The notes below the pieces were generated by a model. That model was not told the origin of the DNA, did not search any database, and worked only from the letters and a program-made list of their open reading frames with translations. Position numbers and translations under genes: made by a program. From positions 1-57,831 of the forward strand of contig NZ_MWQY01000022.1 of NCBI RefSeq assembly GCF_002087085.1: a stretch of DNA of 57,831 nucleotides, read 5' to 3'. The DNA is from Marispirochaeta aestuarii (GTDB lineage Bacteria; Spirochaetota; Spirochaetia; JC444; Marispirochaetaceae). Below are positions 375-29,514 of this stretch, piece after piece; within the stretch, counting starts at the first letter, position 1, and the number at the start of each line of letters is the position of its first letter.

Positions 375-2519
375 ATGCCGAAGAAGATTCTCCTGGTGGA
401 AGATCAGGCAATTCTTGCGATGACTGAATCCAAGATGATCGAAAAGTACGGATACTCTGTGGAAACCGCGCTGACCGGAGAGAAGGCTGTTTCAATCGTG
501 GAAAAGGACTCCGATATCGATCTGGTTCTCATGGATATCAACCTCGGGCACGGCATGGACGGCACCGAGGCCGCCCGGGCCATCCTTCAAAAACGGTCCC
601 TGCCGATAATCTTTTTATCCAGTTATACGGATCCGGAGGTTGTAGAAAAAACCGAGAGCATAACCGCCTATGGCTATGTGGTTAAGAACACCGGCGAAAC
701 CGTCCTGATTAATGCAATAAAGATGGCCTTCCGGCTGCATGCCTCTTTTAAAAATGAACAGGAGAGCGAGGCCCGCTTCCGCTCCATGGTGGAACACAGC
801 CCGGATCCCATGTTTATTCATACAGACTTTATTCTGGTATATCTCAATCCCGCTTCCCGGAGGCTCTTCGGAGCGTCCTCAAATGAGGAGGTCCTCGATA
901 CCTCCATACTGGACCGGATAGATCCGGCCTATCACAGAGAGGCCATAGACCGGATAAACACAATGGTCAAATCACACCGGCCTATAAGTAAGCGGATAGA
1001 GCAGGAGTATATTCGGCTGGACGGGAGCAGGGTGTGGGTCGAGGTCAGCGGTATTCCAATCTATTTTAAGGGAGAACTTGGAATTCTCACCACTGTGCGG
1101 GAGATCCACGAGCGAAAGCTCCGGGAGCAGCAGATTCAGGAGAGCAGAGAGAGCCTGCGAATTACCCTCAATTCCATCGGTGACGGGGTAATCTCCACAG
1201 ATATCCAGGGGAATGTCGTCCGCATGAATCCTATAGCCGAAGAGCTTACAGGATGGACTATCAGGGAGGCGAAGGGTAAAAAACTCGCGGAAATTTTTCA
1301 GATACAGAATGCATTCAGCAGGGAGACAAGCCCCAACCCGGTTGCTCGAGTCATGGAAACAGGCGAGACGGTCGGGCTGAGCAATCATACCATTCTGATT
1401 TCCCGGACCGGACAAGAGCATCAGATCGCCGACAGCGCCGCTCCCATCAAGGACAGCAGCGGAATCATCAGCGGCGTAGTTCTGGTATTCAGGGATGTAA
1501 CAGAGGAATACCGGAAAAACCGGGAGCTTCGGGAATCCCGGGACTATCTTAACGCCGTGCTCAGCAGCATACAGGATGGAGTAAGCGTTCTCGACACGAA
1601 TCTGAATATTACCTATGTAAATCCTGTAATGGAAAAACGGCACAGACATATGATGCCGCTTGTGGGAAAAAAATGTCATTACGCCTATCATTATTCAGAT
1701 CAAATCTGCAATCCCTGCCCTTCACAGCGCTGTCTGCTGAGCGGAAAAACTGAAAAAGATGTGATACAGGTTTCATCTGAAGGCGAAAAAGAACCGGAAT
1801 GGGTTGAAGTCTACAGCTATCCCCTGCGAGACCATGAGACGGGGAGAATGCAGGGTGTCATTGAATTTGTCCGGAACATAACAGAGCGGAAAAAAGCGGA
1901 GGACAGGCTCATCGATGCGGTGGAGGAAAAGGAGCTTCTGATGAAGGAGCTTAACCACCGGGTAAAAAATAACCTGGCTATAATAAGCTCCCTTTTGCAG
2001 ATAGAAACCGCCAGACTCGGAAGCCAGCTCGACCTCTCGGATATTATTTCCAGAATTGACGCTATCCGGATCATTCACGAAAAACTGTATCAATCGGATA
2101 AAATCACCCACATACAGTTGGGGGATTATATCCAGGACCTGTTGGAGATGGTTTTTTCATCCTTCTCCGACCGCCCCATCAGAATAGACAACCGTATAGG
2201 AAACATCACGGTCAAGACAAAACCGGCGGTATCCCTTGGTCTTATAGTAAACGAGATTGCGGTAAACGCAATCAAACACGGCTTTACGACTGACAAGGAG
2301 GCTGTTTTCTCGGTTTCCCTGGAAGAAAACGCCGACAGCTATTATTACATGACCCTTTCCAACACGGGACGTCCCTTTCCGGAAGATGTGGACATACATA
2401 ATCCCGCGAGCCTTGGTCTTCAGCTGGTGGGAACCCTTGTCGAGCAGCTTAACGGCTCCCTGGAAATTCAGAAAAGTCCGCAACCTGTTTTCAGGCTGAA
2501 ACTCAGCCTGAAGGACTGA
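375..2519 (+). CDS. Hybrid sensor: response-regulator receiver, three PAS domains, HWE/HisKA_2-type histidine kinase
   Basis: A 714-aa cytoplasmic two-component protein with no transmembrane segment. A receiver domain occupies about residues 1-125, with phospho-acceptor Asp54 in VLMDINLG and the conserved Lys in YVVKN. Three PAS units follow at about 135-250, 260-380 and 390-510. The third carries four cysteines in a CH...C-x2-C-x4-C cluster that could bind a metal or sense redox state. The kinase region has the HisKA_2 H-box ELNHRVKNNL with His528, and an HATPase domain with N-box VNEIAVNAIKHG near the C-terminus. Receiver-first hybrids of this kind are common in environmental spirochaetes. 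The signal and the cognate output are unknown. It converges on the small secreted-protein gene, with 23 bp between the stop codons. Confidence 0.9.
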   Translation: MPKKILLVEDQAILAMTESKMIEKYGYSVETALTGEKAVSIVEKDSDIDLVLMDINLGHGMDGTEAARAILQKRSLPIIFLSSYTDPEVVEKTESITAYGYVVKNTGETVLINAIKMAFRLHASFKNEQESEARFRSMVEHSPDPMFIHTDFILVYLNPASRRLFGASSNEEVLDTSILDRIDPAYHREAIDRINTMVKSHRPISKRIEQEYIRLDGSRVWVEVSGIPIYFKGELGILTTVREIHERKLREQQIQESRESLRITLNSIGDGVISTDIQGNVVRMNPIAEELTGWTIREAKGKKLAEIFQIQNAFSRETSPNPVARVMETGETVGLSNHTILISRTGQEHQIADSAAPIKDSSGIISGVVLVFRDVTEEYRKNRELRESRDYLNAVLSSIQDGVSVLDTNLNITYVNPVMEKRHRHMMPLVGKKCHYAYHYSDQICNPCPSQRCLLSGKTEKDVIQVSSEGEKEPEWVEVYSYPLRDHETGRMQGVIEFVRNITERKKAEDRLIDAVEEKELLMKELNHRVKNNLAIISSLLQIETARLGSQLDLSDIISRIDAIRIIHEKLYQSDKITHIQLGDYIQDLLEMVFSSFSDRPIRIDNRIGNITVKTKPAVSLGLIVNEIAVNAIKHGFTTDKEAVFSVSLEENADSYYYMTLSNTGRPFPEDVDIHNPASLGLQLVGTLVEQLNGSLEIQKSPQPVFRLKLSLKD

Positions 2520-2542: not shown

Positions 2543-3121
2543 TCAATCCGCCGAACGGGCTATCTCCACCAGGGATACGATATCTCCCCTGCGCTTGTAC
2601 TCCATACTTTTTATCCGGATTAATCCCGTGTTCATCCCAGATTTTTTGGCAGCCTCGAGCAGAGCCCTGCGTCCGGGCTGCAGGCGAACCCTCCCCGAGG
2701 AGACAAGCTCTTCCGCGGGGAACACAACCTCGAGCTCCCTGACCTTTCGATATGCACGGGGAGCGGAAGGAATCAGCTCAAGCTCATATTCAACTGCCAG
2801 GGGAACGCCTGAAAGCCCGATCTGTTTTCTGCCCTCCACGGGCATGGAAAAGCGGCGACTGGAGGAAATTTTCACACCTGTTTCGCTGACTGCATACTCC
2901 TGAAACAGAAAAAGGGAGGCTTCTCCCGCAAGCGAACCGGCGCTGCTTCCCTGATCTGCCGGGCTGGAGGAGACGAGGACGAGACTGATCCTGCGCTTCT
3001 CTTCCGTCTGAACGCTGTCTTTGAGGCCCGTTTCTTCCTTTTCCTTCGAACCGAAGGCAAAGAGCCCCTGCGTCATCAGTGCACACAGAACCAGCAGCAG
3101 ATATATATACGTACGTTTCAT
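2543..3121 (-). CDS. Secreted hypothetical protein, 192 aa
   Basis: The start at 3121 (MKRTYIYLLL) is chosen because AAGGAG lies just upstream of this ATG; the frame is open 14 codons further, but that extension lacks a hydrophobic leader. Residues 1-22 form a signal peptide ending near LFAFGS, a style common in spirochaete exported proteins, followed by a charged KEKEE stretch. There is no lipobox cysteine. The mature part holds short beta-strand-like segments and a Ser/Arg-rich middle. I do not recognise a family. It is a single gene convergent with the sensor kinase and divergent from the glycosyltransferase gene. Confidence 0.7.
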   Translation of the reverse strand: MKRTYIYLLLVLCALMTQGLFAFGSKEKEETGLKDSVQTEEKRRISLVLVSSSPADQGSSAGSLAGEASLFLFQEYAVSETGVKISSSRRFSMPVEGRKQIGLSGVPLAVEYELELIPSAPRAYRKVRELEVVFPAEELVSSGRVRLQPGRRALLEAAKKSGMNTGLIRIKSMEYKRRGDIVSLVEIARSAD

Positions 3122-3229
3122 GAAAACTCCTTCTACACTAATATATCTCCGGTTTTGCGGCATTACAAAGTTCAGGACCGGAGGTACTATTGATAGAGAT
3201 GAAGCCTTGCTTTAGAGTGGTTTTTCAAT

Positions 3230-4324
3230 ATGGATAGCCGGAAAATACTCTTTCTTGAAGCCTTTTACGGGGGATCCCACAGAACCTTTGCCGACGGCCT
3301 TATACGGCACAGCCGCCATGATATTCGTCTGGTAAGCCTTCCGGCCCGTTCCTGGAAGTGGCGACTCAGGGGGGCCTCCCTTCATTTTTTAAAGGAAATC
3401 GACAACTGGCAGGATTATGATCTTGTAGTCAGCGGCGGTATGATGAGTCTTGCGGACCTGAAAGCCCTTGCAGGTCCGGACCTCCCTCCCCTGGTCCTCT
3501 ACTCCCACGAGAGTCAGCTGAGCTACCCCCTGCCTCCTGAAGAAAAGATTGACTATCAATTCGGTTTTACGGATATAACAAACTGCCTGAGCGCCGACGG
3601 AATACTCTTCAACTCCAGGTTTCACCTTGACGCCTTCTTCCGGGAACTTGTTCCGTTCTTAAAACGCATACCGGAATTCCGTCCGGACTGGGTTCGGGAT
3701 TCAATCCGCAGGAAAAGCCGGGTACTCTATCCCGGCTGTGAACTCTCCCCCTTCATGGAGGAGAAAAAACCCCATGCACCGGGGCCTCTCCTTATTCTCT
3801 GGAACCACCGCTGGGAATTCGACAAAGCCCCGGAGAAGTTCTTCAAGGCGCTGGAGCTGCTGGACGAAAAAGGACTTGATTTCAGCATAGCCCTTCTTGG
3901 AGAGTGCTCCCGGAAGGTTCCGAAACCTTTCAAGGCTGCCAGGGAACGTTTCGGAAACCGGATCGCCGTCTATGGTTACAGAGAATCCCGGGAAGAATAT
4001 GATTCATGGCTCCGGAAGAGCGACATTGTCATTTCCACGGCCCTGCAGGAGAACTTCGGTATTTCCATCGTGGAGGCGGTCGCTGCCGGGGCCTTTCCCC
4101 TCCTTCCCCACCGGCTTGCCTATCCGGAGGTTCTGCCGGATCATTTCCACCGGGGACATCTGTATAAAAATGTTCCCGACCTGGTGGCAAAGCTGGAGAA
4201 ACTGCTTAAACAGGGTCTTCCGGCAATACAGGACCTTTCCCGGTCCATGATGATCTATGCCTGGGAAAACTGTATAGATGATTACGACGACTATTTCAGC
4301 GCCCTTGCGGAGGGAAGAAAATGA
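3230..4324 (+). CDS. DUF3524 glycosyltransferase, tRNA-queuosine alpha-mannosyltransferase (QTMAN/GTDC1)-like
   Basis: 364 aa. The N-terminal half (about residues 4-175) matches the DUF3524 family: ILFLEAFYGGSHRTFADGL, then LPARSWKWRLRG, then a SHESQLSYP segment (HENQLVYP in animal GTDC1), then a FNSRFHLDAF segment. The C-terminal half is a GT-B glycosyltransferase lobe with ENFGISIVEAVAAG, which contains the donor-binding acidic residue. Animal members mannosylate queuosine-34 of tRNA-Asp, and bacterial members are inferred to modify queuosine or a related acceptor. The gene overlaps the next one, an RNA m5C methyltransferase, by 4 nt (ATGA). This supports a shared role in RNA modification. 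Substrate and sugar are inferred, not visible. Confidence 0.85.
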   Translation: MDSRKILFLEAFYGGSHRTFADGLIRHSRHDIRLVSLPARSWKWRLRGASLHFLKEIDNWQDYDLVVSGGMMSLADLKALAGPDLPPLVLYSHESQLSYPLPPEEKIDYQFGFTDITNCLSADGILFNSRFHLDAFFRELVPFLKRIPEFRPDWVRDSIRRKSRVLYPGCELSPFMEEKKPHAPGPLLILWNHRWEFDKAPEKFFKALELLDEKGLDFSIALLGECSRKVPKPFKAARERFGNRIAVYGYRESREEYDSWLRKSDIVISTALQENFGISIVEAVAAGAFPLLPHRLAYPEVLPDHFHRGHLYKNVPDLVAKLEKLLKQGLPAIQDLSRSMMIYAWENCIDDYDDYFSALAEGRK

Positions 4325-5103
4325 GTAAAAAGGGACGGAGGCCGGATTTCGACACATACTACCGGGACCTTTTCAAAAGTCGCTGGGAGGGTCTTAAACA
4401 GGCAATGGAGGCTGATTCCTCCCACGCTGAACTGAGCCGGGGACTTCTGAAGCCCTACTACCTGGACGCAGCCTCCCTCTTTCCCGTCCGGGCCCTTGAT
4501 GTAGAAGGAGGCGTAAATATTCTGGATCTCTGTTCCGCTCCAGGAGGAAAGGCCCTGGCCATAGCCGGGAGCATGGGGCCTGAGGCGCAGCTTACGGTAA
4601 ACGACCGCTCCTCCCAGCGGAGATCCCGTCTGCGCCGGGTCCTGGAGGAACACCTTGAAACGGGCATACTCTCCCGCATTACTGTTACCGCCCATGATGC
4701 CGCCCGCTGGGGACTCTACGAACAGAACCTCTATGACCGGGTTCTGGCGGATGTTCCCTGCTCCTCCGAGCGCCACCTTGTCCAGGACCCCGGACATCTG
4801 AAGAACTGGAGTCCCGCCCGCACCAGACACCTGGCGGTACAGGCCTACGCGATTCTTGCAGCGGGTTTCACCGCCCTCAAAGCGGGGGGTATCCTCGTCT
4901 ACTCCACCTGCGCCCTGTCCCCCGGGGAAAATGACGACGTTATCGCCAAACTCCTGAAACGTCAGGCCAGCGAATGTCGACTGCTGCAACCCGACGGCAC
5001 AATCGGCGAGGCAACGGAATACGGCAGAATAATCCTCCCGGATAATGCGAACGGAATGGGACCTATCTACTACGCCGCGGTGACAAAGGCCCGGGCTTTC
5101 TGA
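4321..5103 (+). CDS. RsmB/NOP2/NSUN-family RNA m5C methyltransferase
   Basis: 260 aa. A Rossmann SAM-binding motif ILDLCSAPGGKA at about residues 64-75 is typical of RNA cytosine-5 methyltransferases. The motif IV cysteine lies in ADVPCSSERHL and the motif VI catalytic cysteine in YSTCALSPGEND. At this length it lacks the N-terminal NusB-like domain of full RsmB. That makes it closer to the short NSUN4-like or RsmF-core type, acting on rRNA or tRNA in the cytoplasm. It is translationally coupled to the upstream queuosine-glycosyltransferase-like gene through a 4-nt overlap. The exact target nucleotide cannot be told from sequence. Confidence 0.87.
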   Translation: MSKKGRRPDFDTYYRDLFKSRWEGLKQAMEADSSHAELSRGLLKPYYLDAASLFPVRALDVEGGVNILDLCSAPGGKALAIAGSMGPEAQLTVNDRSSQRRSRLRRVLEEHLETGILSRITVTAHDAARWGLYEQNLYDRVLADVPCSSERHLVQDPGHLKNWSPARTRHLAVQAYAILAAGFTALKAGGILVYSTCALSPGENDDVIAKLLKRQASECRLLQPDGTIGEATEYGRIILPDNANGMGPIYYAAVTKARAF

Positions 5104-5135: not shown

Positions 5136-5615
5136 ATGAATCCTCTGTTTTTTACCATATTTCTTGCCTTTCTGCCGATTTCCGAACTTCGGGGGGCGAT
5201 TCCCTACGCCCTGGCCAAGGGCTATCCCCTCTATTTCGCCTATCCTCTGTGTGTCGCCGTCAACGCCATGGTGGCCCCCCTGGGCTTTCTGTTTCTCTCC
5301 ACCGTACACATGTGGATGAACCGCTTTCGCTGGTACCACGGAATGATAAATCCGCTCCTAGAGCGGGCACGGCACAAGGTCGATGCCAAGGTACAGAAAT
5401 ACGGGTACTGGGGTATCATGCTCTTTGTCGCCATTCCCCTCCCTGTAACCGGGGCCTACACCGGAACCCTGGGAGCCTGGATTCTGGGGCTTGGAAAACG
5501 CAGGACCATTGCAGCGGTCTTTGCCGGAGTAATAATCGCCGGGATAATCGTAAGCACCGTCAGCGTTCTTGGAATCGAAGCCTTCAGTTTTTTCACAAAA
5601 TCAGTTTCTCAATAG
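5136..5615 (+). CDS. COG2426 / small multidrug export family membrane protein
   Basis: 159 aa with about four hydrophobic segments. The N-terminal signature FLPISELRGAIPYA and the central IPLPVTGAYTGTLGAW motif are characteristic of the COG2426 (PF06695) family of small inner-membrane proteins. The family is annotated as putative small multidrug exporters, but its transport activity is poorly established. The start is supported by GGAGG four bases before the ATG. It lies 12 nt before the helicase gene and is probably co-transcribed with it. Confidence 0.8.
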   Translation: MNPLFFTIFLAFLPISELRGAIPYALAKGYPLYFAYPLCVAVNAMVAPLGFLFLSTVHMWMNRFRWYHGMINPLLERARHKVDAKVQKYGYWGIMLFVAIPLPVTGAYTGTLGAWILGLGKRRTIAAVFAGVIIAGIIVSTVSVLGIEAFSFFTKSVSQ

Positions 5616-5627
5616 TATAAGGAGCCT

Positions 5628-7637
5628 ATGGATTTTACCTCAGGACTGAACGACCGCCAGAAAGAGGCGGTCCTTAGCATCGACGGACCCTTATTGATCA
5701 TAGCCGGCGCGGGCTCGGGAAAAACCAGGGTAATAACCCATCGCATAGCCCATATGCTGACCCAGGGGATACCCCAGTCCTCCATACTCGCCCTGACCTT
5801 TACCAACAAGGCCGCCCGGGAAATGTCAGAACGGGTTCGTGAGCTTACGAAGAAAAAGCTCTCCAACCTGACGGTCTCCACCTTTCATGCCTTCGGGGTG
5901 CAGATTCTCCGCAAAACCATTCATCTTCTGCCGGGCTATCGTGACAATTTCAGTATTTACGACCAGGCGGACAAGAACGCCCTGATCAAGGAATGCGCCA
6001 GGGAGCTGGGCATGGCCCCGGACACCCTGGATCTGTGGGAAATCGGCAATATCTTTTCCTCGGTAAAGACCTTCAGGCACAAATGGGACGGGGATACAAA
6101 GATCTACGAAAAGCTCTTTCACGAGTACCAGGAGCACCTTCAGCTCTACAACGCTGTGGATTTTGACGATCTGATCGTCCGGCCCATCCATATTCTGCAG
6201 GAGAATCCCGAGGTACTGGAATCCTACCGGGAGCGTTTCCGCTATGTCATGGTGGATGAGTTTCAGGATACCTCCATGGCCCAGTACCGGCTCATGAAGA
6301 TACTGTCCGAGACCAACCGCAACATCTGCGTGGTAGGGGACGACGATCAGTCCATATACTCCTGGCGGGGAGCCAATTACGAGAACATCATCAATTTTGA
6401 GCGGGACTTTCCGGAACTCACGGAGATAAAGCTTGAGCAGAACTACCGCTCCACCGGAAACATCCTGGCGGCGGCAAACGGCTTGATTGCCCATAACACC
6501 AACCGAAAGGAGAAGGAGCTCTGGACGGGGACCGGCTACGGTAATGCCATCGAAATCTACTATCCGGAGAACGAACAGCGGGAGGCGGAGTTCATTACGA
6601 CCATGATCCGCATGCTCAAGAGTCGGGGGGAGATCGAGTACCACGATGTGGGAGTCCTGATTCGCACCAACTCTCTCTCGGCGACCCTGGAGGACGCCTT
6701 TCTCAACGAGAACATCCCCTACCGCATATCCGGGGGCACCAGCTTTTTTCAGCGCAAGGAAATTAAGGACCTGATCTCCTACCTGCGGATCATGTCGAAT
6801 CCCGACGACGACATGAACCTGCTGAGGATAATAAATACCCCCCGCAGGGGCATAGGCAAACGAACCCTGCAGCGGATACAGGAGACGGCCCAGAAAAAAA
6901 ACTGTTCCATCTACAGTGCCATCTCCGCCCTGCGCTACGCCTCGGACTCCGGTCTGGGAGAAAAGGCCCAGACGGACCTGTCGGATTTCGTCTCTCTTAT
7001 CGAGTACTACCGGGAAATGGTTTTTACCGGCAAGGGCATTGCCAAAACCGTTCAGTCCCTGGTGGATGCGGTCCAGTACTGGCCATATCTGATTGGAGAA
7101 CATCAGAAAAACGAAAGCACCGCGCGCTGGAAGTATGCCAACATCTGCAGATTCATAGAGATGATCGCCCAGTGGGAGGAGACCCAGAAGGAAGAGGGCC
7201 GTAAAGCCTCGGTATACGACTATCTTAACCGGATTACCCTGATTACCCGGGATGACGACCAGGATGACGATGACGGCAAGGTGAACATTATGACCATCCA
7301 TGCCGCCAAGGGGCTGGAGTTTTCCCTGGTTTTCCTGGCCGGGGTGGAAGCCCACCTCGTACCCCACGCCCGTGCCGTGGAGGAGGATCCGGCGAACCTG
7401 GAAGAGGAACGCCGGCTCTTCTACGTTGCCATAACCCGGGCCCGGGAGAAGCTCTACATAACAAGCTGCCGGTCCCGCAGGAACATGCGGGACGTACTGG
7501 TCTGTGAGCCCTCACCTTTTCTGACGGAGATCCCCGAGGGCCTTATAGAAGACCACATCGGCGAAGACGAGCTGTCCACCGAAGACGCGGTGGAAGCCCT
7601 CTCCGCCCTCAGGGCAAAGTTCGCGTCCGGCAGCTGA
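5628..7637 (+). CDS. uvrD: UvrD/PcrA-family 3'-5' DNA helicase
   Basis: 669 aa, an SF1A helicase of DNA repair and replication-fork maintenance. Motif I is AGAGSGKT (residues 26-33), motif Ia is LTFTNKAAREM, motif II is VDEFQDT near residue 210, and motif III contains GDDDQSIYSWRGA. Motif IV includes LEQNYRS, motif V includes TIHAAKGLEF and motif VI includes VAITRARE. The length is close to Rep/PcrA (about 670-720 aa). The C-terminus is short and lacks an obvious extended RNA-polymerase-binding tail. AAGGAG precedes the ATG. The stop codon is only 2 nt from the stop of the opposing gene, leaving no room for an intergenic terminator. Confidence 0.95.
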   Translation: MDFTSGLNDRQKEAVLSIDGPLLIIAGAGSGKTRVITHRIAHMLTQGIPQSSILALTFTNKAAREMSERVRELTKKKLSNLTVSTFHAFGVQILRKTIHLLPGYRDNFSIYDQADKNALIKECARELGMAPDTLDLWEIGNIFSSVKTFRHKWDGDTKIYEKLFHEYQEHLQLYNAVDFDDLIVRPIHILQENPEVLESYRERFRYVMVDEFQDTSMAQYRLMKILSETNRNICVVGDDDQSIYSWRGANYENIINFERDFPELTEIKLEQNYRSTGNILAAANGLIAHNTNRKEKELWTGTGYGNAIEIYYPENEQREAEFITTMIRMLKSRGEIEYHDVGVLIRTNSLSATLEDAFLNENIPYRISGGTSFFQRKEIKDLISYLRIMSNPDDDMNLLRIINTPRRGIGKRTLQRIQETAQKKNCSIYSAISALRYASDSGLGEKAQTDLSDFVSLIEYYREMVFTGKGIAKTVQSLVDAVQYWPYLIGEHQKNESTARWKYANICRFIEMIAQWEETQKEEGRKASVYDYLNRITLITRDDDQDDDDGKVNIMTIHAAKGLEFSLVFLAGVEAHLVPHARAVEEDPANLEEERRLFYVAITRAREKLYITSCRSRRNMRDVLVCEPSPFLTEIPEGLIEDHIGEDELSTEDAVEALSALRAKFASGS

Positions 7638-13900: not shown

Positions 13901-16900
13901 CTAGGGCACCTCCGGCATCAGATAGTTCAACTCAAAACGGTCCGCCGACGCGTAGCCGAAGGCCGCCTGCCAGTCAGGGCTTCCTCCTCTGACATACTCA
14001 ATACTGACCCGTTTTTCCGTCACGATGGTGTTGTTTGCGATAACCACATACTCCCAGCCGCCTTTCACCGCGTCGTAGAAGGCGAGCTTTATCCCGTCCC
14101 GGGTATTCATTCTGGCGGAATTCAGGTAGGCGATATAGGGTTCATCCGTTCCGGGGGCACGGTTGAGGCTTATGTCCGAATAGATTCCCGCCGTCCCGGT
14201 ATCATCAACTATCTGGGAGTATCCGAAGGAATAGGCTCCGCCGTTTTCGGGGTTGTTGTCGGATTTGATATAGTACAGATACCCCGTATCATCGCTCCAG
14301 AAGGAGATATGCAGATATCCCTGGTCGTCCACAACAGCGGAAATGTGTTTGCCGTTAAAGTCCTTGTTGGGATCATCCGGCAGAAATACCTCCTGACGAG
14401 TCCACTGGTTCTCATCGTCCTGAGGGGCCGTGCTTCCCGTCCGGGCCAGCCGCAGGGTCTTTCCGATGTTGTCGTAGTAAACGATCACCGGATAATAGTC
14501 CTCATCCAGGGCCAGGGAGAGGAATTCACCCGCGTCTGTCGTGCGGGCGATTCCGCCTGTCACCATGCGGTTATTCTCCCCGCCGTCGGTATCGGTGTCG
14601 GTCCCGTCGATATTTACCCAGTCCTGGAGTTCCGCTTCGTCGTTGTTTGCAGTAGATACGTACTGATACTTCAGGGTGTTGGAAATTCTATCGTGGTATG
14701 CCCAATGCACATTGGCGCCGTACCGTGCCGTCCGCACCTGGGAGAACTGGAAGAGCTCGCTGTCGTAACTCAGACCCTCACCCTGATAGTACCAGTTGTC
14801 AAAGAAGCTGCGGGTCCACTGTTCCGTATTTGCCGGAAGATTTGCGGCCCCGTCATTATCAACGTCGCCGTCTATGAAGTTGGCGTTCCGTTCGTAGGGG
14901 AAGGAACTGATATGCCCGTCGCTGTAGTTTCCATCCGATGAATTATTTGCCAGCCAGGCCAGGGCAAGACGGCCGGTGCTTGTTGGTGATGTCGCATCCA
15001 TGGCGATGTCGATGTGTTCCGCCGTGTCATAGGTGTGATAAACGCGGCTGCGGAAGGCGGCTGCATCGGTATTGCCGGAGGCAAAGAATACGTCAGAGGT
15101 CGCGTAGCTGGACCAGGCACCGAAGAGCCTGGAAGTACCCGGATGAATCGTCATGGCCGGATGCTGGGGGCTGTAGGAACTTTCCGGATCGGGTCCGAAG
15201 TATTCTCCAACCTTGAACAGGAAGAAGTAGCGGTCGTCGTTCCAGTCGGCTTCATTGCCGTCGGTACCGTAGGTGCTGTTGTAGCTGCGCTGATTGCTGT
15301 TGACATTGTTGACGGCATCGACACCATCCACCCGTATACCCAGCCAGCCGCTTCTGCTGGTTCCGCCGATGGATAATTCGAAGCTGGTAAAATCGGGGGC
15401 AATATTACTCACCGTCAATGCATCAGGGGTACCGCTCCCGGCGGGATCCCGGTACAGACCCGCAGTAGTGGGATTCAGGTTGAAGCCCACTACCTGTATA
15501 TCAGTTTCATTGTGATACACCGAATACCGGCCGAATCTTGATCGGTTGGTCTTGAGTCCGGGGGTGAGCCGGTTGATCTCGCTTATGTAGGGGACTACAT
15601 CCACGTTCATATCCGAACTTGATCCCGCGGGAGTCAGTACGCCGGTGTTCGGCCCGTCGGTGGCGCGTACCATAACGGTCTGATCCAGAGCCGCGGTGGT
15701 CCAGGATACCGATTCGGAGGGATCCGCGGTGTTGATTGTATAACTCCAGGTGTAATCGTAACCGGCGATATCATCGCCCCCGATCCGGGTAAGGGAATCG
15801 ACGGAATACCAGGTAATTCCGGAGTCGAAGCTGATTTCCACGTCATTGACGACAGTGTCGTCGTAGGCGGTTCCGGTAAAGCTTACCACGCCGGAGATGT
15901 CCGCCTGACCGGCCTGAATAGTTACGTCCCCTGCGGGAGTCCCATCAAGGGCTGATTTCAGCAGTACCTCGCCGCTGCCCGAATCGAAGTCCGCGATACC
16001 TCGCCACTCTCCGTTTTCGAAGGCTGCGGTCCATCCGGGCTGTACCGTTCCGTTGCCCATAAGGTCCGTCGATACAAAGAATTCCCTGTCCCCGGAAACA
16101 GAGGCGATGGCCGCGATAATACTGCCGCCGTCATTCAGGCTGAATCCCGCCTCATCAATATGTCCGTTCAATGGGGTAACATTACTTTGATCAAGATCAT
16201 CGATCTCCACAACAGGAGGTGTAATATCGCTGTTGTTGACCCATAATTCAATATCTCTCTGAACCAGGTTATCGTCGGTATCCAGCACCTCGATTCTCAG
16301 GGTGTACTGGACACCGGATTCCCAGCCGGAGATATCCAGGTTTATATCGTTCTCGTTCGTACCGTCCCCGGTATCGGAGATATCGATAGTAGTACCCACC
16401 GCCGGTACACCCGTACTGTCTTCAAGGCCGTTGGGAGCCGTCCGGCGCCCTCTTACGCTGGCGGTATAGGAAGCAGGGTTTATTCCTTCGTAATCACTGG
16501 CATTTACCTTGAGATATACGGAATCAGTGCGCTTGAAGAGCCCTGAATACAGGGTACCCGATTCATCTATTTCGATGCTTTCAATTTCCGGCGGATTATT
16601 CACGATCTGGATTGAAACCCTTTGATGTACATAATTGCCCGCCGTATCATAGACCAGGGTGTACATGTCCATGGGACCGTCTGGAAATATGCTCGTATCA
16701 AAATAGACAAACCATTCATCGTAGGTTCCCTTGGAAAGCAGGCTTTCCTGGAATCCGTCGTCATCGCCGTCCGCCGGATCGTCGTCGTACAAGCCTCTTT
16801 CCGATCGTTTGTCGACGTCGATCAGAAGGGACGGATCCTCGGTAAAGGGTATCATCTGTTCAATACCGCTCATGTCGGGTACGTCGGCGGTGCTGACTGC

Positions 16901-19900
16901 GCTGGTGCTTCCTGTCGTGGGATTATAGAAGTTTCCGTTCTTTACAAAGTAGACCCGTACAGATTCAATTCCGCTGATCGTTCCTGTGTCTTCCGCGCTT
17001 CCGATCAGGAGGTAATCTCCTCCCGATGTACTGTTCCCGTGAAAGCTGTAGATTTCTGCGGGGGGTGTTCCAATGTAGGAGAGGTCGTCCTTGTAATTGA
17101 AGCTGCCCGTTGGCAGAGTGTTGTCCACATTGAGCTGGATGGACAGGGTGTTCTGCTTGAAGGTCTGGTCCGTAACCCGCAATACCGCCTGGAGTATACC
17201 GTTTCCTCCCGGAACGATGCCTCCTGCGGCAGTGGTATCCAGTTCAAGTTCCAGGTCATATTCGTAGTATCCGTCCACAAGCCCGTTATCGGTAACCGAA
17301 CCCCCGGCATCGCTGATGCTCTGGAAACTGACGCCACCATCATAGCTGATCTGCATGCGCGAAGCTGTCAGGGGCATGTCATCCTTGAAACGTGCCGAGA
17401 GCTCGACCATCGGTCCGGATACTATGGAACCGTTAAGGGGCCTCGGCAGGGCTTCTCCCTGCCCTTCGATAAGGGGAGCCGTCGAGTCGATATAGATTCT
17501 GACCTCCCTGGCCTCCCCGGCCAGGTTGGGGCTTCCGGAGCGGGTGTTGTCAACATCGTAGGGTATTACCCTGAGGCGTATCCACCCGTCCGCAGCGGCA
17601 TACCCTGCGGCAATCAGGCTGGCCTTGCTGAGTTCGTTGGACTGGTTCATCAGGATGTTCCAGGAACCGTTGGTCACGCTCAAGTCGATGGGGACCGATT
17701 CATCCTCGAAATCCGAATCCCCGCTACTTCCGCTTCCGTCCAGGTCTAAACTGGAGGTATAGAATCCGTCATCATCCAGATCAACCTGGATTGTGACCTT
17801 CTGTATGTCGTCGTCATCGCTGACCGTACCCTGTACAATGAAGGCTCCGGCTACGCTCGAAGAGGCGGCGGGGGCGGTCAGGTAGAGCTGAGGCTTATCG
17901 CTGTCGGGATCGATATCAACCTGGAATACCTCGGACCCCAGGTTGCCTGCTGCGTCGCTTGCACTGACATCCACAGGGAAACGCCAGATATTGCTGCTTC
18001 CCGGTACCGTTTCAGTGGCGTACAAGGGGCCGGCGTACAGATCGCTGTCGAGCTCCAGTACCCAGTTGAGACTGGTGCCGCTGTTGCTCAGGAGAACATC
18101 ATCGGATATGCCGCCCACGGCGGAAAAACCGGTAACAGCACTCGCTTCCGTAACCGAACCCCGCAGGGTTACGGTCCCGTTTACATTGGGCGGATCAGCA
18201 AGATCCATACCCGCAGGCTGGGTGGGAATAATGTCGGGTTCGGTGGTGTCAATATTTACCGGGAGACTGATCGTCGTTGATTTGCTGAACTGGTCGACTG
18301 CGCTTATGTATAGGGTGAGAGAACCGTCCATGGATCCGTCCCGCGGAATCGCCACTGTGTGGGACCAGTCCGGGGCATTCAGTGTATCCACGGAGACAAA
18401 ATCGATTCCGTTGGTACTGATTTCAACATCCGTCAGGACAGTGCCGTCCACAGCCGTACCCGACATCAGAAAGCTGTTGTTGATCAGAGTCCCCGCCGTC
18501 GCAGTCTTATTCACAGTGCCCGCTGCATAGGCGTTGTCGATTTCAAAATCGATCACGCTGAGGGCCGGTGCGCCGGTATCGATGGTAAAGGCCACCGACG
18601 GAGTTTCCACCTCGTTAAAGGGGGTCGAAAGGTCCACATACTCGGTGTCCCGCAGGCGGAACTTTATATAGTGAATGCCCTCCCCCAGGTCTGCGACATA
18701 ATTCTGCCAGTTGAGGTTAATTCCGCTCACCGACACAGGGGTCGATCCGTCGGTGGTAACAGGGGTCCAGGGGACGTAGTTTATATCGTCTTCCGATACA
18801 GCGAACTGCAGGCTCGCAAGGCCGTCGTCATCGTCCGCGGAGCCCAGAACCTTCGCGTTGGATTCGAGCAGGTTATCAACCGCCGCGGCTCCCGCCGTTA
18901 TGTTGGAGAAGGAGATATTCGGTCGGTCGGAACCCTGGTTAATGACAAAACTAAGGTCCTCCCGGGCGGAAATATTCCCGGCCCCGTCCACGGCAATGGC
19001 TGTGACGTAATAGGTCAGGTCGGAATCGGTGTTGTTGATATCCCTGGTATTCAGGAGATAGGACCAGCTGTACGAGGAGCCGAGGGCTTCATAATCGACG
19101 TCACTCTCCGGATCATTTCCTGCAGGATCTGACGGCTGGGTAGTACCGTGGGCCAGATAAACCCTGGACACCATGACAGTATCCGATGCTCCTCCGCGGA
19201 TATTGAGCTCACCGTGGTATGTCCCCGGTTCTGTAAGAAACTCAACCACCGGCGGATCCTCATCCACCAGCAAAGTATAGGAATAGGCTGTTGTCCGGCC
19301 GTGAACATCCTCCACTTCGAGGTTTACCACAAGGGAATCAGCTCCGATGTTCAGGCCAGTCCGGTTCCATGACCAGGTACTGAAATCGGTTCCGGTATCC
19401 GTAACCGCCGCAAAGGAGGCTTCGCCTCCCAGTTTTGCCCGGACTTCAGCTACCCGGACACCGTCCGAGGCAGTACCGGTCAGGGTGAAGCGGTCATTCA
19501 CATAGATTCCCTGAAGAGTCACAGAGCTGGATACTCCGTTACTGATCTGGCTTATCGAAGCTGCCGGTTCGCTGTTGTCAACATTCAGACTTATACCGGT
19601 CGATAAAGCCGATACCGGATCGACATCCTGGGAGTCATCAAGGAAATCCTCACCCGTATCGTAAGCCCGTACCTGAACAGGATAGGACGCAATTCTTTCG
19701 CTAACGCCGGGGCCGGGATCACTCAGGGAATGACTGAATACGACGCTGGTTGAGTTTGAAGCAGAGTGGCTGCTTACAGGGTACCAGGATGAGCCGTTGT
19801 CGAAGGAGATCTCGATACTGTCCACGTCCACTCCGTCGTCGTCCCGTATTGTACCGCTGATGGAATCCGAATAGCGCAGCAGGGATCCGTCAGGGGTATC

Positions 19901-22900
19901 GAGGCTCAGCTCCGGGGCGTTTCCGGCCTGTACGGGGGTAAAACTGAGGACATAGTCCCCGGGAGCGGTCCTGTTACCCGCCCGGTCTTCAACAATAAGA
20001 TAGGCTGCATGGGGGACAGAATCCGTGAGGAGCGTGGAGTTGAAGCGCTTGTTAATGCTCGTTGTCCCCGCCAGCAGCTCCCAGCCTTCGACGGTCGGAT
20101 CAGGTCCCGGGGCATCGGGCAGAGAGGTGTCGATGCGCAGATATACAGCGGTAACCAGGGTCTCCTGATCCTGAGGCGCACCCTGAATAAGGGCGGAACC
20201 GTTGATAATACCGCCGCCGGTCTGATCGTTGTTTACCAGTACCAGGGATTCGATGAGAGGTTTTACCGTATCGATGCTTATGTAACGGTCCGTGGTAGTG
20301 ATTTTACCGTAGACATCGGTTACGGTAATACTGTAATTCAGAATTCCGTCATCACTGTGAGCATCAGTATCCACGTCGTACAGATCGCTCCAGTTTACGC
20401 TGGTTTCATAAGGATCTGCGCTGTCCTCGTAGAGGGTCTCAGGGGCGGCAGTTCCGTACTGTATCTGAACGCGCTGTACACCGCTCGCATCGGAGGCGAT
20501 CCCTTCCAGGACAAAATCATCGTTGGTATACCCGCCGTTAAGGGGCGCTGTCACGGTAACGCCGGGATTCGCGGTATCCACGGCAATCTTAACCATGGGA
20601 GACTCGGACCAGCCGTAGCCCCCGGCGGAGAAGGCACCGGCATCAAGAGTATCAGCTACCCGCAGGATCACCTGATATTTCCCGTCCGAAAGACCTGCTC
20701 CAAAGGTGTGCAGCCAGGTGGCCAGCGTCGTGTCCGAGGAGGGCGCACCGGAAATCGGCATCCAGTCCGGGCTTATAGCACTGACCAGATCTGTTCCGTT
20801 TTCCTCGTACAGGCGGTACTGTATGGTCGAAACATCCACTTTGTCGTCATCTATAATCGTTCCCGCCACCTGTTTTGCCCCGGGGAGCAGATTTTCACTG
20901 AAACTGCCGCTCTGGTTTATGGATGAGAAGCTGATTACCGGACGATCCGATTCCTGATCCACAGTAAAAACAACACTGCTGACTTCACTGAAATTGCCCG
21001 CCATGTCCTCGGAAACGACCCGCAGGGTATAATCACCGTCGCTAACCGGGCTTGTATCGAAAGTCCCGTTCCAGGAATAGGTACCGCCCAGGGGAGTGTA
21101 ATCCTCAGGGAAGTCCGGCTCGGGCAGACTGCTCTCCTGAATATTATAGTATGCGGCGGCCAGGGAAATATTGTCCCCCCCCGTGCCGCTGAATACGAGG
21201 GAACCGTTGACGATATCGCTTCCCTGGGGCTGATTTATAGCTGCTGTGGGAAGACTCGCATCAACGGTGAACTGGACGTTCTGCAGGGCTTCTGAACCAT
21301 AGGCATCGAGGGCGCGAACGCGGCAGGTGTATACGCCGTCATCAGTCCCGTCGGCGCTGACTGGCAGGTTAAATTGCCAGTTGATCGAAGTTCCCGGGGT
21401 CACTTCCAGATCGTCCCAGCTGCTCCCGTTATCCAGACTGATTTCCACGGAAGCAACCCCATTGGCATCCACAGCCGTACCGGAAATGATGACATCGCTG
21501 TTGTTGTAGCTGTAACCGGCAGGTGTCAGGATGTTCAAGGAGGGCGGTCCGATGTTGAGAATAAAGGGGATTCCCGACTGGTCGACGGAATCCTCAATGT
21601 TCCAGTTGAAGTTCGTTGAATATTCGGGGGCAATACTGGATGCACCTGATGTTCCGTCGGACTGGCTGTCCCGGACCCTGAGTTTTACCCGGTGCAGACC
21701 TTCTGAGAGGGCAGAGATATCGTGTTTCCAGGCAACCAGCCTGCCCGATGAAGAAGGCGGACCGGATACGGGCTCCCAGGGGGCACCGTCCAGGCTTATT
21801 TCGATGGCGGAACCGAAAAAAAGGCCCGGATCGATGGAATCGTCATCCTCGATAGTCCCTACCAGGCTTACCGCTCCGGTCAGGACATTGTTTGTCGCGG
21901 TGGTTTCGTCTTTATCCAGATCGTTGAAACCTATTTCGGGCCGATCGCTGCCCTGGTCAATATGGACGGATCTGGCGTACTCGCCAGAAATATTACCTGC
22001 GCCGTCAACTGCCCGTACCGAGATGATATATTCCAGGGGGACATCACTGCTGTTCAGCTCGAGACTGCTGAAATCAAAGCTCCAGGTATAGGTTCCGTCG
22101 GCGATAAAATCCCAGTCCAGAATATCCGTGTCGGGGGAGGATCCGACGGGATTAATGTCCGCGTATACTCCTGCCACACTGCGGTTATCGTTGGTGGTAC
22201 CCCGGACATTCACTGCAGCACCGTTGACGACTGTGGAGTCCGCAGGCTGTTCGATCACCAGGATCGGAGGACTGGCATCGACTATAACACCCCGATCCAG
22301 CGTGGTGGTACCGTCGCTGGCATCCACGGCTATTACCTGATAGGTATACTCGCCGTCGTCATCCCCGCCTGCATCAACGGAAAAGGAGTAGCTCCCGTCA
22401 TAACTCAGTTGATCGTAGGGCTCGGCTGCGTCCTCCAGCAGGACATACTCCTCGCTCCCGTTGAAGATTATCTTTACCAGCTTGAGTCCGTTGGCGTCAG
22501 CGGCGGAAATATCGATGCTAAAGTCGGTATTGAAAACCGCGTTGTTGGTCGGGGCGCTTATGCTCAGATCCGGAGGACCATAATCGACAATAAATCCCGT
22601 CAGGGGCAGAATACTGAGGTTGCCGCCGATGTCACGGACCCGTATCTGCATGCTGTGCTCGCCCTGGCTTATACCGCTTAGTACATGACTCCAGCTCGCA
22701 ATGTTTCTGTCTCCTGAGGGCACCTTGCTTACAGGCGTCCAGGCTCCCCCGTCAACCTGTATCTCTATGGTCGAGACATCAACACTATCGTCGTCTTCGA
22801 CGAGACCTACAATGCTGGGATCCCGGCCCAGGGGATTTTCATCCGCCGCGCCGCCGACAGTCAGATTGGAGAGGCTGATAATCGGCAGATCCGAGGATTG

Positions 22901-24760
22901 AAGAATTTCAAAATCCCGGCTGATAGGGCTGCTTGAATTTCCGGCGGCGTCTTCAACAACAAGGCTCAGGGTGTACAGGCCGTCCCCGGGAACAGCTGTG
23001 TCGAGATTATAGGACCATGTATAATCCTGGGACAGATCGGTAAAGTCATCGGGAAAAACAGGATTCGACGGGGCTGCCCCAACGTGCAGGTATACAGTCC
23101 TGACATAACCGGTGTAGCCGTCGGCTTGAACATCCTGGGCTCCTCCCCGCAGGGTAAAGACACCGTTGATGACCTCGTCCTCGGCGGGGCTGCTTATGTT
23201 CCCGGAAGGGGGCTCGATGTCACTGATCAGCTGAAGGTTTCCATAACCGTAATTGCCGACCGTCCCGGCTCGTACGCTGACGGGCAGCTCGCCGTTCTGT
23301 GTAAGGTCAAAGATTTCTGAATCGAAAGGTGCCGTCCCGACGCTGACGCCTTCGGAAAGGTCCGCCGTAAAGGTATCCGCCCCGGTCTGATTCATCCGGA
23401 GCTCATAATCCCCGTCATTGTCCCAGTCGAGCCACACTTCGCCGCTTCCCAGCCCGGTAACCTTGGCTGTAACGGTCACAGATCCCGCATCCCCGATAAA
23501 ACTGCCCTGGGTGGGAGACGTTACCTGAACCACCGGTGCGAAGGAACTGACCCGGAAACTGGCCAGGTTGGGAGCAAGTTCGTTTGGCTTGCCGAGAATG
23601 TCCTCGACGTAGAGGGTGTAGTAGTATTCCCCATCGGGAAGATTGGTCTCGTAAGTCCACTGGGTACCCGTAACGGTAAAGTCTTCCCAGTTTGCACTTT
23701 CCACAGGATTGTCACCGGAATCGAAGATTTCTATTTCCAGGGTATCGTTTTTGATACCGTCATCGTCCTCGGCAAAAAAGCTCAGGCGCTGGGGCATACC
23801 CAGAACGTTGCCGGCGGCATTATTGTCAAAACTCGGGATAATTTCCAGAAAGTACGGCTTGTCCGAGTCCTGGTAAAAGGTAACCAGAAGCTGTTCGCCG
23901 GGGCTTGTGTTTTTCCGTGTCAGGGTATAATCCGAGGCGAGCACCCCTGCATTAATGGGGATTCCCTTGTAATCCGCGGCATGCAGTTCCTCGATTATCG
24001 GAGGTGTCTGGCCAGGGTTGGTTATGGCGACAATGTCGTCAAAATGATAAAAATAGGGGTTATAGTTTCCGCTGAAATCCTCGGCCTCCACTACAAAATA
24101 GTAATCCTCGGGTCCTCCGGAACCGATCCCGAGGCTCTCCGAATCGAAGGGATAGTACCAGCTCGAGGTTCCGGTAGCCAGTACGTCGGTAATAACCGGT
24201 GTTCCGTCCTGATCATAGAGGGAAATCAGAACCCGCTGTACCCGGGTTGTATCCACCGCTTCGCCTTTCAGGGTAAAGAACTGGTTGAACTCCCGGGTAC
24301 TGTAGCTTGTCGGGGAGGTAATCATGACAGTGGGAGGATTGTTATCGACAATTAGATAAAGACTGATTTTGGCGGATTTTCCGGTGGTATCAAGGGCTGT
24401 CAGTATAAACTCATACTCGCCATCGTCCATCAAAGCGGTATCCACACTGCCCGACCAGTTTCCGCTGCTGTAGGTAGCATTCTCTTCAATACCGGGTCCC
24501 TGAATGCGTACTGACTTGATACCCTGATCGTCCTCTGCAGTACCGGAAAGCTGGATCACCCCGGATACGTAATCCCCGTTTCCATGGCTGAGGATATCCA
24601 GGCGCGGCGCGTTAATGTCAACGGAATCACCAAGACCGGGTGAGAATAGATCACAGGTACTCAACAGAAGGGCCAGAATAAAAAAAACCGCCGCACCGTA
24701 AAGGTATAGTATTCCTTTCGGGGGTTTCCCTCTTTCTCTTTTTCCGTTGTACCTGGTCAT
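13901..24760 (-). CDS. Giant Ig-like-repeat surface lipoprotein, 3619 aa
   Basis: The N-terminus carries a basic stretch, a hydrophobic segment and a lipobox-like LLLSTC (Cys36), so it is a probable lipoprotein. Most of the protein (about residues 45-3000) is a chain of Ig-like domains of the TSP-x-N/G...GTAxDxxGV type found in bacterial adhesins. They are arranged in a higher-order unit that recurs about six times and includes the marker segments SDRPxISF and DDDxVDVSTIxIxxDGGxW. The Asp-rich loops may bind calcium. The last ~550 residues differ. They contain repeated strand motifs (LSLALDEDYYPVIVYYD, HISAVVDDQGYLHISFWSDD) that look like a beta-propeller. GAGGA lies 8 nt before the ATG. It is downstream of a related Ig-like gene and probably co-transcribed with it. 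The ligand is unknown. Confidence 0.85.
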   Translation of the reverse strand: MTRYNGKRERGKPPKGILYLYGAAVFFILALLLSTCDLFSPGLGDSVDINAPRLDILSHGNGDYVSGVIQLSGTAEDDQGIKSVRIQGPGIEENATYSSGNWSGSVDTALMDDGEYEFILTALDTTGKSAKISLYLIVDNNPPTVMITSPTSYSTREFNQFFTLKGEAVDTTRVQRVLISLYDQDGTPVITDVLATGTSSWYYPFDSESLGIGSGGPEDYYFVVEAEDFSGNYNPYFYHFDDIVAITNPGQTPPIIEELHAADYKGIPINAGVLASDYTLTRKNTSPGEQLLVTFYQDSDKPYFLEIIPSFDNNAAGNVLGMPQRLSFFAEDDDGIKNDTLEIEIFDSGDNPVESANWEDFTVTGTQWTYETNLPDGEYYYTLYVEDILGKPNELAPNLASFRVSSFAPVVQVTSPTQGSFIGDAGSVTVTAKVTGLGSGEVWLDWDNDGDYELRMNQTGADTFTADLSEGVSVGTAPFDSEIFDLTQNGELPVSVRAGTVGNYGYGNLQLISDIEPPSGNISSPAEDEVINGVFTLRGGAQDVQADGYTGYVRTVYLHVGAAPSNPVFPDDFTDLSQDYTWSYNLDTAVPGDGLYTLSLVVEDAAGNSSSPISRDFEILQSSDLPIISLSNLTVGGAADENPLGRDPSIVGLVEDDDSVDVSTIEIQVDGGAWTPVSKVPSGDRNIASWSHVLSGISQGEHSMQIRVRDIGGNLSILPLTGFIVDYGPPDLSISAPTNNAVFNTDFSIDISAADANGLKLVKIIFNGSEEYVLLEDAAEPYDQLSYDGSYSFSVDAGGDDDGEYTYQVIAVDASDGTTTLDRGVIVDASPPILVIEQPADSTVVNGAAVNVRGTTNDNRSVAGVYADINPVGSSPDTDILDWDFIADGTYTWSFDFSSLELNSSDVPLEYIISVRAVDGAGNISGEYARSVHIDQGSDRPEIGFNDLDKDETTATNNVLTGAVSLVGTIEDDDSIDPGLFFGSAIEISLDGAPWEPVSGPPSSSGRLVAWKHDISALSEGLHRVKLRVRDSQSDGTSGASSIAPEYSTNFNWNIEDSVDQSGIPFILNIGPPSLNILTPAGYSYNNSDVIISGTAVDANGVASVEISLDNGSSWDDLEVTPGTSINWQFNLPVSADGTDDGVYTCRVRALDAYGSEALQNVQFTVDASLPTAAINQPQGSDIVNGSLVFSGTGGDNISLAAAYYNIQESSLPEPDFPEDYTPLGGTYSWNGTFDTSPVSDGDYTLRVVSEDMAGNFSEVSSVVFTVDQESDRPVISFSSINQSGSFSENLLPGAKQVAGTIIDDDKVDVSTIQYRLYEENGTDLVSAISPDWMPISGAPSSDTTLATWLHTFGAGLSDGKYQVILRVADTLDAGAFSAGGYGWSESPMVKIAVDTANPGVTVTAPLNGGYTNDDFVLEGIASDASGVQRVQIQYGTAAPETLYEDSADPYETSVNWSDLYDVDTDAHSDDGILNYSITVTDVYGKITTTDRYISIDTVKPLIESLVLVNNDQTGGGIINGSALIQGAPQDQETLVTAVYLRIDTSLPDAPGPDPTVEGWELLAGTTSINKRFNSTLLTDSVPHAAYLIVEDRAGNRTAPGDYVLSFTPVQAGNAPELSLDTPDGSLLRYSDSISGTIRDDDGVDVDSIEISFDNGSSWYPVSSHSASNSTSVVFSHSLSDPGPGVSERIASYPVQVRAYDTGEDFLDDSQDVDPVSALSTGISLNVDNSEPAASISQISNGVSSSVTLQGIYVNDRFTLTGTASDGVRVAEVRAKLGGEASFAAVTDTGTDFSTWSWNRTGLNIGADSLVVNLEVEDVHGRTTAYSYTLLVDEDPPVVEFLTEPGTYHGELNIRGGASDTVMVSRVYLAHGTTQPSDPAGNDPESDVDYEALGSSYSWSYLLNTRDINNTDSDLTYYVTAIAVDGAGNISAREDLSFVINQGSDRPNISFSNITAGAAAVDNLLESNAKVLGSADDDDGLASLQFAVSEDDINYVPWTPVTTDGSTPVSVSGINLNWQNYVADLGEGIHYIKFRLRDTEYVDLSTPFNEVETPSVAFTIDTGAPALSVIDFEIDNAYAAGTVNKTATAGTLINNSFLMSGTAVDGTVLTDVEISTNGIDFVSVDTLNAPDWSHTVAIPRDGSMDGSLTLYISAVDQFSKSTTISLPVNIDTTEPDIIPTQPAGMDLADPPNVNGTVTLRGSVTEASAVTGFSAVGGISDDVLLSNSGTSLNWVLELDSDLYAGPLYATETVPGSSNIWRFPVDVSASDAAGNLGSEVFQVDIDPDSDKPQLYLTAPAASSSVAGAFIVQGTVSDDDDIQKVTIQVDLDDDGFYTSSLDLDGSGSSGDSDFEDESVPIDLSVTNGSWNILMNQSNELSKASLIAAGYAAADGWIRLRVIPYDVDNTRSGSPNLAGEAREVRIYIDSTAPLIEGQGEALPRPLNGSIVSGPMVELSARFKDDMPLTASRMQISYDGGVSFQSISDAGGSVTDNGLVDGYYEYDLELELDTTAAGGIVPGGNGILQAVLRVTDQTFKQNTLSIQLNVDNTLPTGSFNYKDDLSYIGTPPAEIYSFHGNSTSGGDYLLIGSAEDTGTISGIESVRVYFVKNGNFYNPTTGSTSAVSTADVPDMSGIEQMIPFTEDPSLLIDVDKRSERGLYDDDPADGDDDGFQESLLSKGTYDEWFVYFDTSIFPDGPMDMYTLVYDTAGNYVHQRVSIQIVNNPPEIESIEIDESGTLYSGLFKRTDSVYLKVNASDYEGINPASYTASVRGRRTAPNGLEDSTGVPAVGTTIDISDTGDGTNENDINLDISGWESGVQYTLRIEVLDTDDNLVQRDIELWVNNSDITPPVVEIDDLDQSNVTPLNGHIDEAGFSLNDGGSIIAAIASVSGDREFFVSTDLMGNGTVQPGWTAAFENGEWRGIADFDSGSGEVLLKSALDGTPAGDVTIQAGQADISGVVSFTGTAYDDTVVNDVEISFDSGITWYSVDSLTRIGGDDIAGYDYTWSYTINTADPSESVSWTTAALDQTVMVRATDGPNTGVLTPAGSSSDMNVDVVPYISEINRLTPGLKTNRSRFGRYSVYHNETDIQVVGFNLNPTTAGLYRDPAGSGTPDALTVSNIAPDFTSFELSIGGTSRSGWLGIRVDGVDAVNNVNSNQRSYNSTYGTDGNEADWNDDRYFFLFKVGEYFGPDPESSYSPQHPAMTIHPGTSRLFGAWSSYATSDVFFASGNTDAAAFRSRVYHTYDTAEHIDIAMDATSPTSTGRLALAWLANNSSDGNYSDGHISSFPYERNANFIDGDVDNDGAANLPANTEQWTRSFFDNWYYQGEGLSYDSELFQFSQVRTARYGANVHWAYHDRISNTLKYQYVSTANNDEAELQDWVNIDGTDTDTDGGENNRMVTGGIARTTDAGEFLSLALDEDYYPVIVYYDNIGKTLRLARTGSTAPQDDENQWTRQEVFLPDDPNKDFNGKHISAVVDDQGYLHISFWSDDTGYLYYIKSDNNPENGGAYSFGYSQIVDDTGTAGIYSDISLNRAPGTDEPYIAYLNSARMNTRDGIKLAFYDAVKGGWEYVVIANNTIVTEKRVSIEYVRGGSPDWQAAFGYASADRFELNYLMPEVP

Positions 24761-29505: not shown

Positions 29506-29514
29506 GTTTTTCAA

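Follow-up and report, generated by a model that had tools for sequence, protein, structure and literature searches.

The question raised by this locus of Marispirochaeta aestuarii is why a gene of the QTMAN family (DUF3524), named for a glycosyltransferase of tRNA queuosine, should run directly into a gene for an RNA m5C methyltransferase, and whether the two products act on the same RNA. The window, i.e., the whole stretch of DNA analysed here, is an entire contig of 57,831 bases from a draft genome of 4.2 Mb in 78 contigs that is 97% complete. An earlier note on this DNA had described the pair and suggested, with the eukaryotic relationship between queuosine and m5C38 in mind, that an operon of this kind would mark a conserved functional pairing.

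The gene pair and its setting

The description of the pair was borne out in both of its parts. The two ORFs lie where the note had placed them and share the four letters ATGA (Table 1), and their families are as it had named them: the product of the first matched the QTMAN_N domain PF12038 at 193.2 bits (cut-off 25) and Glycos_transf_1 at 51.5 bits, and the product of the second matched PF01189 (Methyltr_RsmB-F) at 102.9 bits (cut-off 27), its only Pfam match at E 0.01. A GGAGG sequence sits just upstream of the NSUN start, within the 3' end of the QTMAN ORF, and we read the two genes as a presumably co-transcribed unit with translational overlap. Neither Rfam families nor tRNA genes were found in the window.

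Table 1. Features of the window, with positions counted from its first base
Feature	Coordinates	Strand	Remarks
Hybrid sensor protein	375..2519	+	
Divergent small protein	2543..3163	-	No Pfam family; in Marispirochaeta occupies the position of the PGM/HAD phosphatase genes of other families
QTMAN-family (DUF3524, PF12038) glycosyltransferase	3230..4324	+	364 aa; GT-B fold predicted; EX7E at residues 274-282
ATGA stop/start overlap, QTMAN/NSUN	4321..4324	+	NSUN ATG 4321-4323; QTMAN TGA 4322-4324
NSUN4-type m5C RNA methyltransferase	4321..5103	+	260 aa; catalytic domain only; C147 (PCSSERH), C197 (YSTC)
Sm_multidrug_ex membrane protein (SMX)	5136..5615	+	PF06695 128.6 bits; close to NSUN, UvrD or both in other genomes; member of the recurrent block
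UvrD/Rep-type helicase	5628..7637	+	PF00580 294.2 bits, PF13361 261.5 bits; often found downstream of NSUN in Spirochaetia (synteny)
Very long ORF	13901..24760	-	3619 aa
Very long ORF	24784..29514	-	1576 aa
Type I restriction enzyme R subunit	34747..37701	-	

A probable queuosine glycosyltransferase

The QTMAN name of the first protein rests on Pfam, and a PDB sequence search with it returned only one weak match to a general glycosyltransferase. Its AlphaFold2 model (pLDDT 90.5, pTM 0.89, from a 42-sequence alignment) had as its Foldseek neighbours in the PDB GT-B enzymes including MshA, BshA, PimA and TreT, at 11-16% identity and E values of 1e-14 to 1e-10 among the 50 matches listed. The predicted GT-B fold is accompanied by an EX7E motif, which we take to mark retaining enzymes of that fold: of 81 homologues, 77 have E274 (D in the other 4) and 78 have E282 (Q in the other 3). 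Residues E10, S16, H17, R45, W191, R194, D198, K199 and G277 are likewise kept in 78-81 of the 81. Like QTMAN/GTDC1, the tRNA-queuosine alpha-mannosyltransferase, the window protein combines the PF12038 N-terminal domain with a C-terminal Glycos_transf_1 domain in what is predicted to be a GT-B fold; unlike QTMAN/GTDC1, it is bacterial, its host has tgt and queA, and its acceptor and sugar are putative. It would be a retaining GT-B enzyme whose most likely reaction is the attachment of a hexose (mannose, by analogy) to queuosine-34 in a tRNA with a GUN anticodon, tRNA-Asp for example.

A host for such an enzyme must have queuosine to offer, and in the genome of the window both tgt and queA scored over their cut-offs, indicating that queuosine is made there. 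Among 17 QTMAN genomes examined, tgt was found in all and queA in 16, the one without queA being 76% complete and having a stop inside its tgt match. Since nearly all Spirochaetota genomes (371 of 392) have queA, this co-occurrence says little on queuosine as the substrate. QTMAN itself is uncommon, being present in 12 of the 392 genomes of the phylum sample, in none of 14 control genomes, and in 70 of the 394 genomes of a sample of the class Spirochaetia.

These features have to be weighed against a different and rather unlikely reading, in which bacterial DUF3524 proteins have no queuosine role but are GT4-type enzymes whose acceptor is a different small molecule or a glycan of the cell surface, and the gene block is merely an old gene order. 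The closest folds, at the low identities given above for the 50 matches listed, are those of enzymes for small molecules or lipids; the near-neutral pI of 6.88 gives the window protein no obvious RNA-binding charge; and in many Spirochaetia a phosphoglucomutase/phosphomannomutase (PGM/PMM) gene lies upstream. Gene neighbourhoods further afield were surveyed in the best 80 of 285 QTMAN loci, 71 of them, judged by record title, from phyla other than Spirochaetota, mostly Desulfobacterota. In 9 of those 80, all outside Spirochaetota, QTMAN is followed at a short distance by a second GT4-type glycosyltransferase (directly next to it in L016, L017, L022, L027, L028, L078 and L079, nearby in L050 and L089), and a class I methyltransferase is near the second GT4 in 8 loci, as judged by scanning one member of each neighbour family. 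Such a combination could fit glycan synthesis in those bacteria. The second GT4 is nonetheless confined to a minority of loci, no neighbour is widely common to the best 80 of 285, and the commonest, a TPR protein in 15 of the 80, is not a glycan enzyme; the N-terminal domain is the QTMAN-specific one, far over its cut-off. We read the window protein as a probable bacterial queuosine (man)glycosyltransferase. No report of a working bacterial QTMAN/DUF3524 enzyme was found among the titles and opening lines of abstracts listed from a literature that is poor in subscription papers and preprints, and this is weak evidence of absence.

One outlying member of the family deserves mention: a divergent QTMAN-like ORF of 559 aa (G203:C1:1512838-1513542), in which PF12038 is matched in two pieces, has a very long branch and could have another function.

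An NSUN4-type methyltransferase

The superfamily to which the second protein belongs includes RsmB and RsmF, the bacterial 16S rRNA m5C methyltransferases, and the window NSUN has in common with them the PF01189 domain and the catalytic cysteines, C147 and C197 being present in all 49 Spirochaetia sequences compared. Its affinities within that superfamily lie elsewhere. The best PDB sequence match was NSUN4, the mitochondrial 12S rRNA m5C methyltransferase, at 122.6 bits (E = 1.9e-34), ahead of E. coli YebU/RsmF (91.3), Thermus thermophilus RsmF (76) and E. coli Fmu/RsmB (61.4), whereas for a control region of RsmB/F type (G010, Spirochaetota, 195 aa) the order was reversed, with the NOL1/NOP2/sun protein 3m4x at 117.2, YebU at 114 and NSUN4 at 49.1. 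NSUN4 was also the first-ranked structure in Foldseek, with a weak model (pLDDT 64.0, 4 sequences). The NCBIfam equivalog cut-offs for RsmF and RsmB were far from reached (112.2 against 588, and 99.1 against 269.05), and a quick tree set the Spirochaetia NSUNs apart from four Rsm-type outgroups (support 100, branch 2.01). H152, within the PCSSERH motif, follows the same division, being present in 49 of 49 Spirochaetia sequences and 0 of 4 outgroups; the longer motif reads DVPCSSERH in the window protein and DVPCTTDRH in NSUN4.

Like NSUN4, the window enzyme has no PUA domain, PF01189 being its single Pfam domain; unlike NSUN4, it is bacterial and shorter. One account describes NSUN4 as devoid of the PUA domain found in its bacterial counterparts, and as methylating C911 of mouse 12S rRNA independently of its partner MTERF4 (PMC3916286). 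In the genome of the window, this gene alone scores over the PF01189 cut-off; one further match reaches 25 bits and stays below it. From the affinity to NSUN4, the missing PUA domain and the status of sole family member, rRNA is the best guess for its substrate, and the protein would be a stand-alone NSUN4-type m5C methyltransferase most likely acting on ribosomal RNA. A search for a 16S gene in the draft genome gave no match.

NSUN matches at E 0.001 or better were obtained in 187 of the 392 genomes of the phylum sample, 155 of them in Spirochaetia (187 less 32 outside the class), including one (G278) with a weak match of 1.5e-11 that may be of another type. A PUA-less NSUN4-type methyltransferase is, on that count of 155 class genomes, common in Spirochaetia.

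Queuosine, m5C38 and the tRNA genes

The idea that drew attention to the pair can be addressed from the tRNA genes. In the genome of the window, tRNA-Asp(GUC) is encoded by two identical copies with the anticodon loop CUGUCAA between complementary stems, which places A at position 38, a position that we take to be C in human tRNA-Asp. With this gene as the query, 24 genomes were searched. Genes for tRNA-Asp were read in 21 of them, and these cover 11 of the 14 genomes in which the QTMAN and NSUN genes are paired; every gene read had A38 and an identical loop, a few further copies without a locus being left unread. tRNA-Asp was not found in G405 or G547, and G417 gave a weak match only. Among the other queuosine tRNAs of the window genome, with positions counted by eye from the stem-loop, tRNA-Asn and tRNA-Tyr have A38 and tRNA-His has U38, so that none has C38.

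Queuosine and m5C38 are described as interacting in eukaryotes in two papers (PMC5372726, PMC5995894), the first of which attributes m5C38 of tRNA-Asp to DNMT2 enzymes. DNMT2 is, like the window NSUN, an RNA m5C enzyme, and in eukaryotes it interacts with queuosine. The resemblance stops there: the window enzyme is a PF01189 protein of a different family, and DNMT2 needs the C38 that is absent here. Queuosine-stimulated m5C38 formation on tRNA-Asp is consequently so improbable for this pair that we set it aside. This part of the earlier suggestion fell, A38 ruling out m5C38 crosstalk on tRNA-Asp in the genomes read and, together with U38 in tRNA-His, excluding it for the window's genome as a whole; C32 and other sites remain.

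Those sites make room for a coupling of another kind, in which NSUN methylates a cytosine other than C38 (e.g., C32, C36 or one in the T-arm) of the queuosine tRNAs, and glycosylation by QTMAN depends on the methylation, or the reverse. C32 is indeed present in the tRNA-Asp, tRNA-Asn and tRNA-Tyr genes of the window genome (by eye). Against it stand the rRNA-like type of the NSUN and the absence of C38, and the distribution of the two genes, to which we now turn, leaves it quite improbable.

How far the pair is conserved

Of the 70 QTMAN carriers in the class, 13 have NSUN as the next gene downstream in the same orientation, with spacings of -17 to +21 nt that depend on script-picked start codons; five of the 70 loci end less than 100 nt from QTMAN, so that adjacency is unreadable from the QTMAN side. 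One of these five (G498) is a fourteenth pair, in which QTMAN is split over two contigs and NSUN adjoins the C-terminal piece. The 13 directly adjacent pairs and the split one put the arrangement beyond chance. The 14 paired genomes are spread over 5 of the 17 families (all 4 carriers of f1, 2 of 2 in f68, 1 of 1 in f69, 5 of 5 in f81 and 2 of 18 in f19), and their genes are 41-83% (QTMAN) and 42-81% (NSUN) identical to those of the window. That so tight a pair should be kept at such divergence is an argument for a coupling on tRNA.

The same survey speaks against that coupling, since each gene is so often found without the other. Of the 70 QTMAN carriers, 36 yielded an NSUN gene, which adjoins QTMAN in 14 of these, and the other 34 yielded none. 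Incompleteness does not explain its absence, as NSUN is also missing from 14 of the 29 carriers with at least 90% completeness and at most 5% contamination. In the other direction, 151 of the 155 Spirochaetia NSUN genomes of the phylum sample are without QTMAN and only 4 have it, the QTMAN and NSUN counts being treated as drawn from the same 392 genomes (their handles agree). The pairing is real but facultative, and either partner is dispensable.

Outside the class the pair was not seen. None of the 71 loci from other phyla, part of the best 80 of 285, had an NSUN match, although one of them (L067) ends 2 nt past the QTMAN match and is uninformative, and two others have just 120 nt (L024) and 165 nt (L063) left. 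Six QTMAN loci from Spirochaetota outside Spirochaetia had no NSUN within about 1 kb downstream. The neighbourhood analysis of bacterial DUF3524 genes that had been proposed in the earlier note, now run, therefore gives a divided answer: the pairing recurs inside Spirochaetia, in a fifth of QTMAN carriers, and its conservation across bacteria finds no support in the 71 loci from other phyla among those best 80.

A proposed ancestral block

In Spirochaetia the pair is part of something larger. Views of about 3 to 19 kb revealed a recurrent block that opens with PGM and often an HAD phosphatase on the opposite strand, continues with QTMAN, NSUN or both, and closes with SMX, UvrD or both; the opposite-strand genes were recognised by Pfam as phosphoglucomutase/phosphomannomutase and HAD phosphatase. 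The slot between the flanks is variously filled. In family f15, two genomes have QTMAN without NSUN (G460, G419) and a third has NSUN without QTMAN (G256), all between PGM-HAD and SMX-UvrD, the QTMAN being flanked on either side by 1-2 kb of other sequence. Six genomes were viewed in f19, of which four have PGM-QTMAN without NSUN (G436, G349, G494, G461) and two have PGM-QTMAN-NSUN (G512, G485). PGM-QTMAN is kept in G374 of f21, with NSUN some 15 kb off on the same strand, and in three genomes of f80 and f82 (G523, G510, G525) NSUN is in the slot and QTMAN is on another contig. In Marispirochaeta, the genus of the window, the PGM/HAD flank is absent and a different gene lies upstream. No block genes were seen around the QTMANs viewed in f65 (G432, G402), f73 (G464), f78 (G520), f20 (G429, a short view) and f80 (G483), and no other block genes were in view of the NSUN of G149.

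This gene order suggests an old block with PGM and HAD divergent from QTMAN-NSUN-SMX-UvrD, from which the adjacency of the two genes would have been inherited, each having since been lost or moved independently. Quick trees, with the paired group defined by gene order, agree with it in part. A single clade of paired QTMANs was rejected (p-AU 0.0023, and 0.022 with the tree confined to the class and three long branches removed), in a tree from which 7 of the 70 carriers were dropped for length and G498 is absent as a fragment of less than 300 aa. A single clade of paired NSUNs, G498 included, was not rejected (p-AU 0.287) in a tree of 30 of the 36 NSUN-bearing carriers and 19 non-carriers selected from those retrieved, so that this tree does not demonstrate that an ancestral pair broke up repeatedly. 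The simplest account is nevertheless that QTMAN and NSUN stood in this order in the ancestor and were then lost or moved independently.

The three f15 loci (L303, L304, L305) also provide an observation in its own right: one slot is occupied by QTMAN alone in two genomes and by NSUN alone in the third, a case of complementary absence.

What the pair may do, and its relevance

The reading that we favour, with reasonable though far from full confidence, is that of an old Spirochaetia pair in which QTMAN glycosylates Q34 and an NSUN4-type enzyme methylates rRNA, the two being co-expressed and having separate RNA substrates. What they would share is expression and a broad role in the tuning of translation, and not a single RNA. 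Within this reading, it is from sequences, predicted folds and gene order that we infer the co-transcription, the ancestral order, the sugar, the acceptor and the rRNA site. A wider proposition is tentative, the considerations for and against it being close to balanced: that several phyla (Spirochaetota, Desulfobacterota, and Planctomycetota and Acidobacteriota by single records) glycosylate tRNA queuosine by means of a QTMAN-family enzyme, so that sugar-queuosine would not be an animal invention, and that the Spirochaetia enzyme was at first expressed together with a bacterial counterpart of mitochondrial NSUN4.

Should bacterial QTMAN proteins indeed attach a sugar to queuosine, simple organisms would allow tests of where sugar-queuosine came from and what it is used for. 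The NSUN4-type enzyme would offer a free-standing model, in bacteria, for an enzyme of mitochondrial ribosome maturation. The pair itself illustrates how gene order can suggest joint function without proving it, either partner being at times absent from the slot, and it is the activity of bacterial QTMAN-family enzymes, rather than the pair, that we regard as the most useful lead.

Other features of the window

The hybrid sensor protein encoded near the start of the window has a response-regulator receiver, PAS domains and a HisKA_2-type kinase. The two very long ORFs are adjacent, contain bacterial Ig-like domains (Big_7, Big_13) and probably encode surface or secreted proteins, and the R subunit of the Type I restriction enzyme was recognised by its HSDR_N and SWI2/SNF2 domains.
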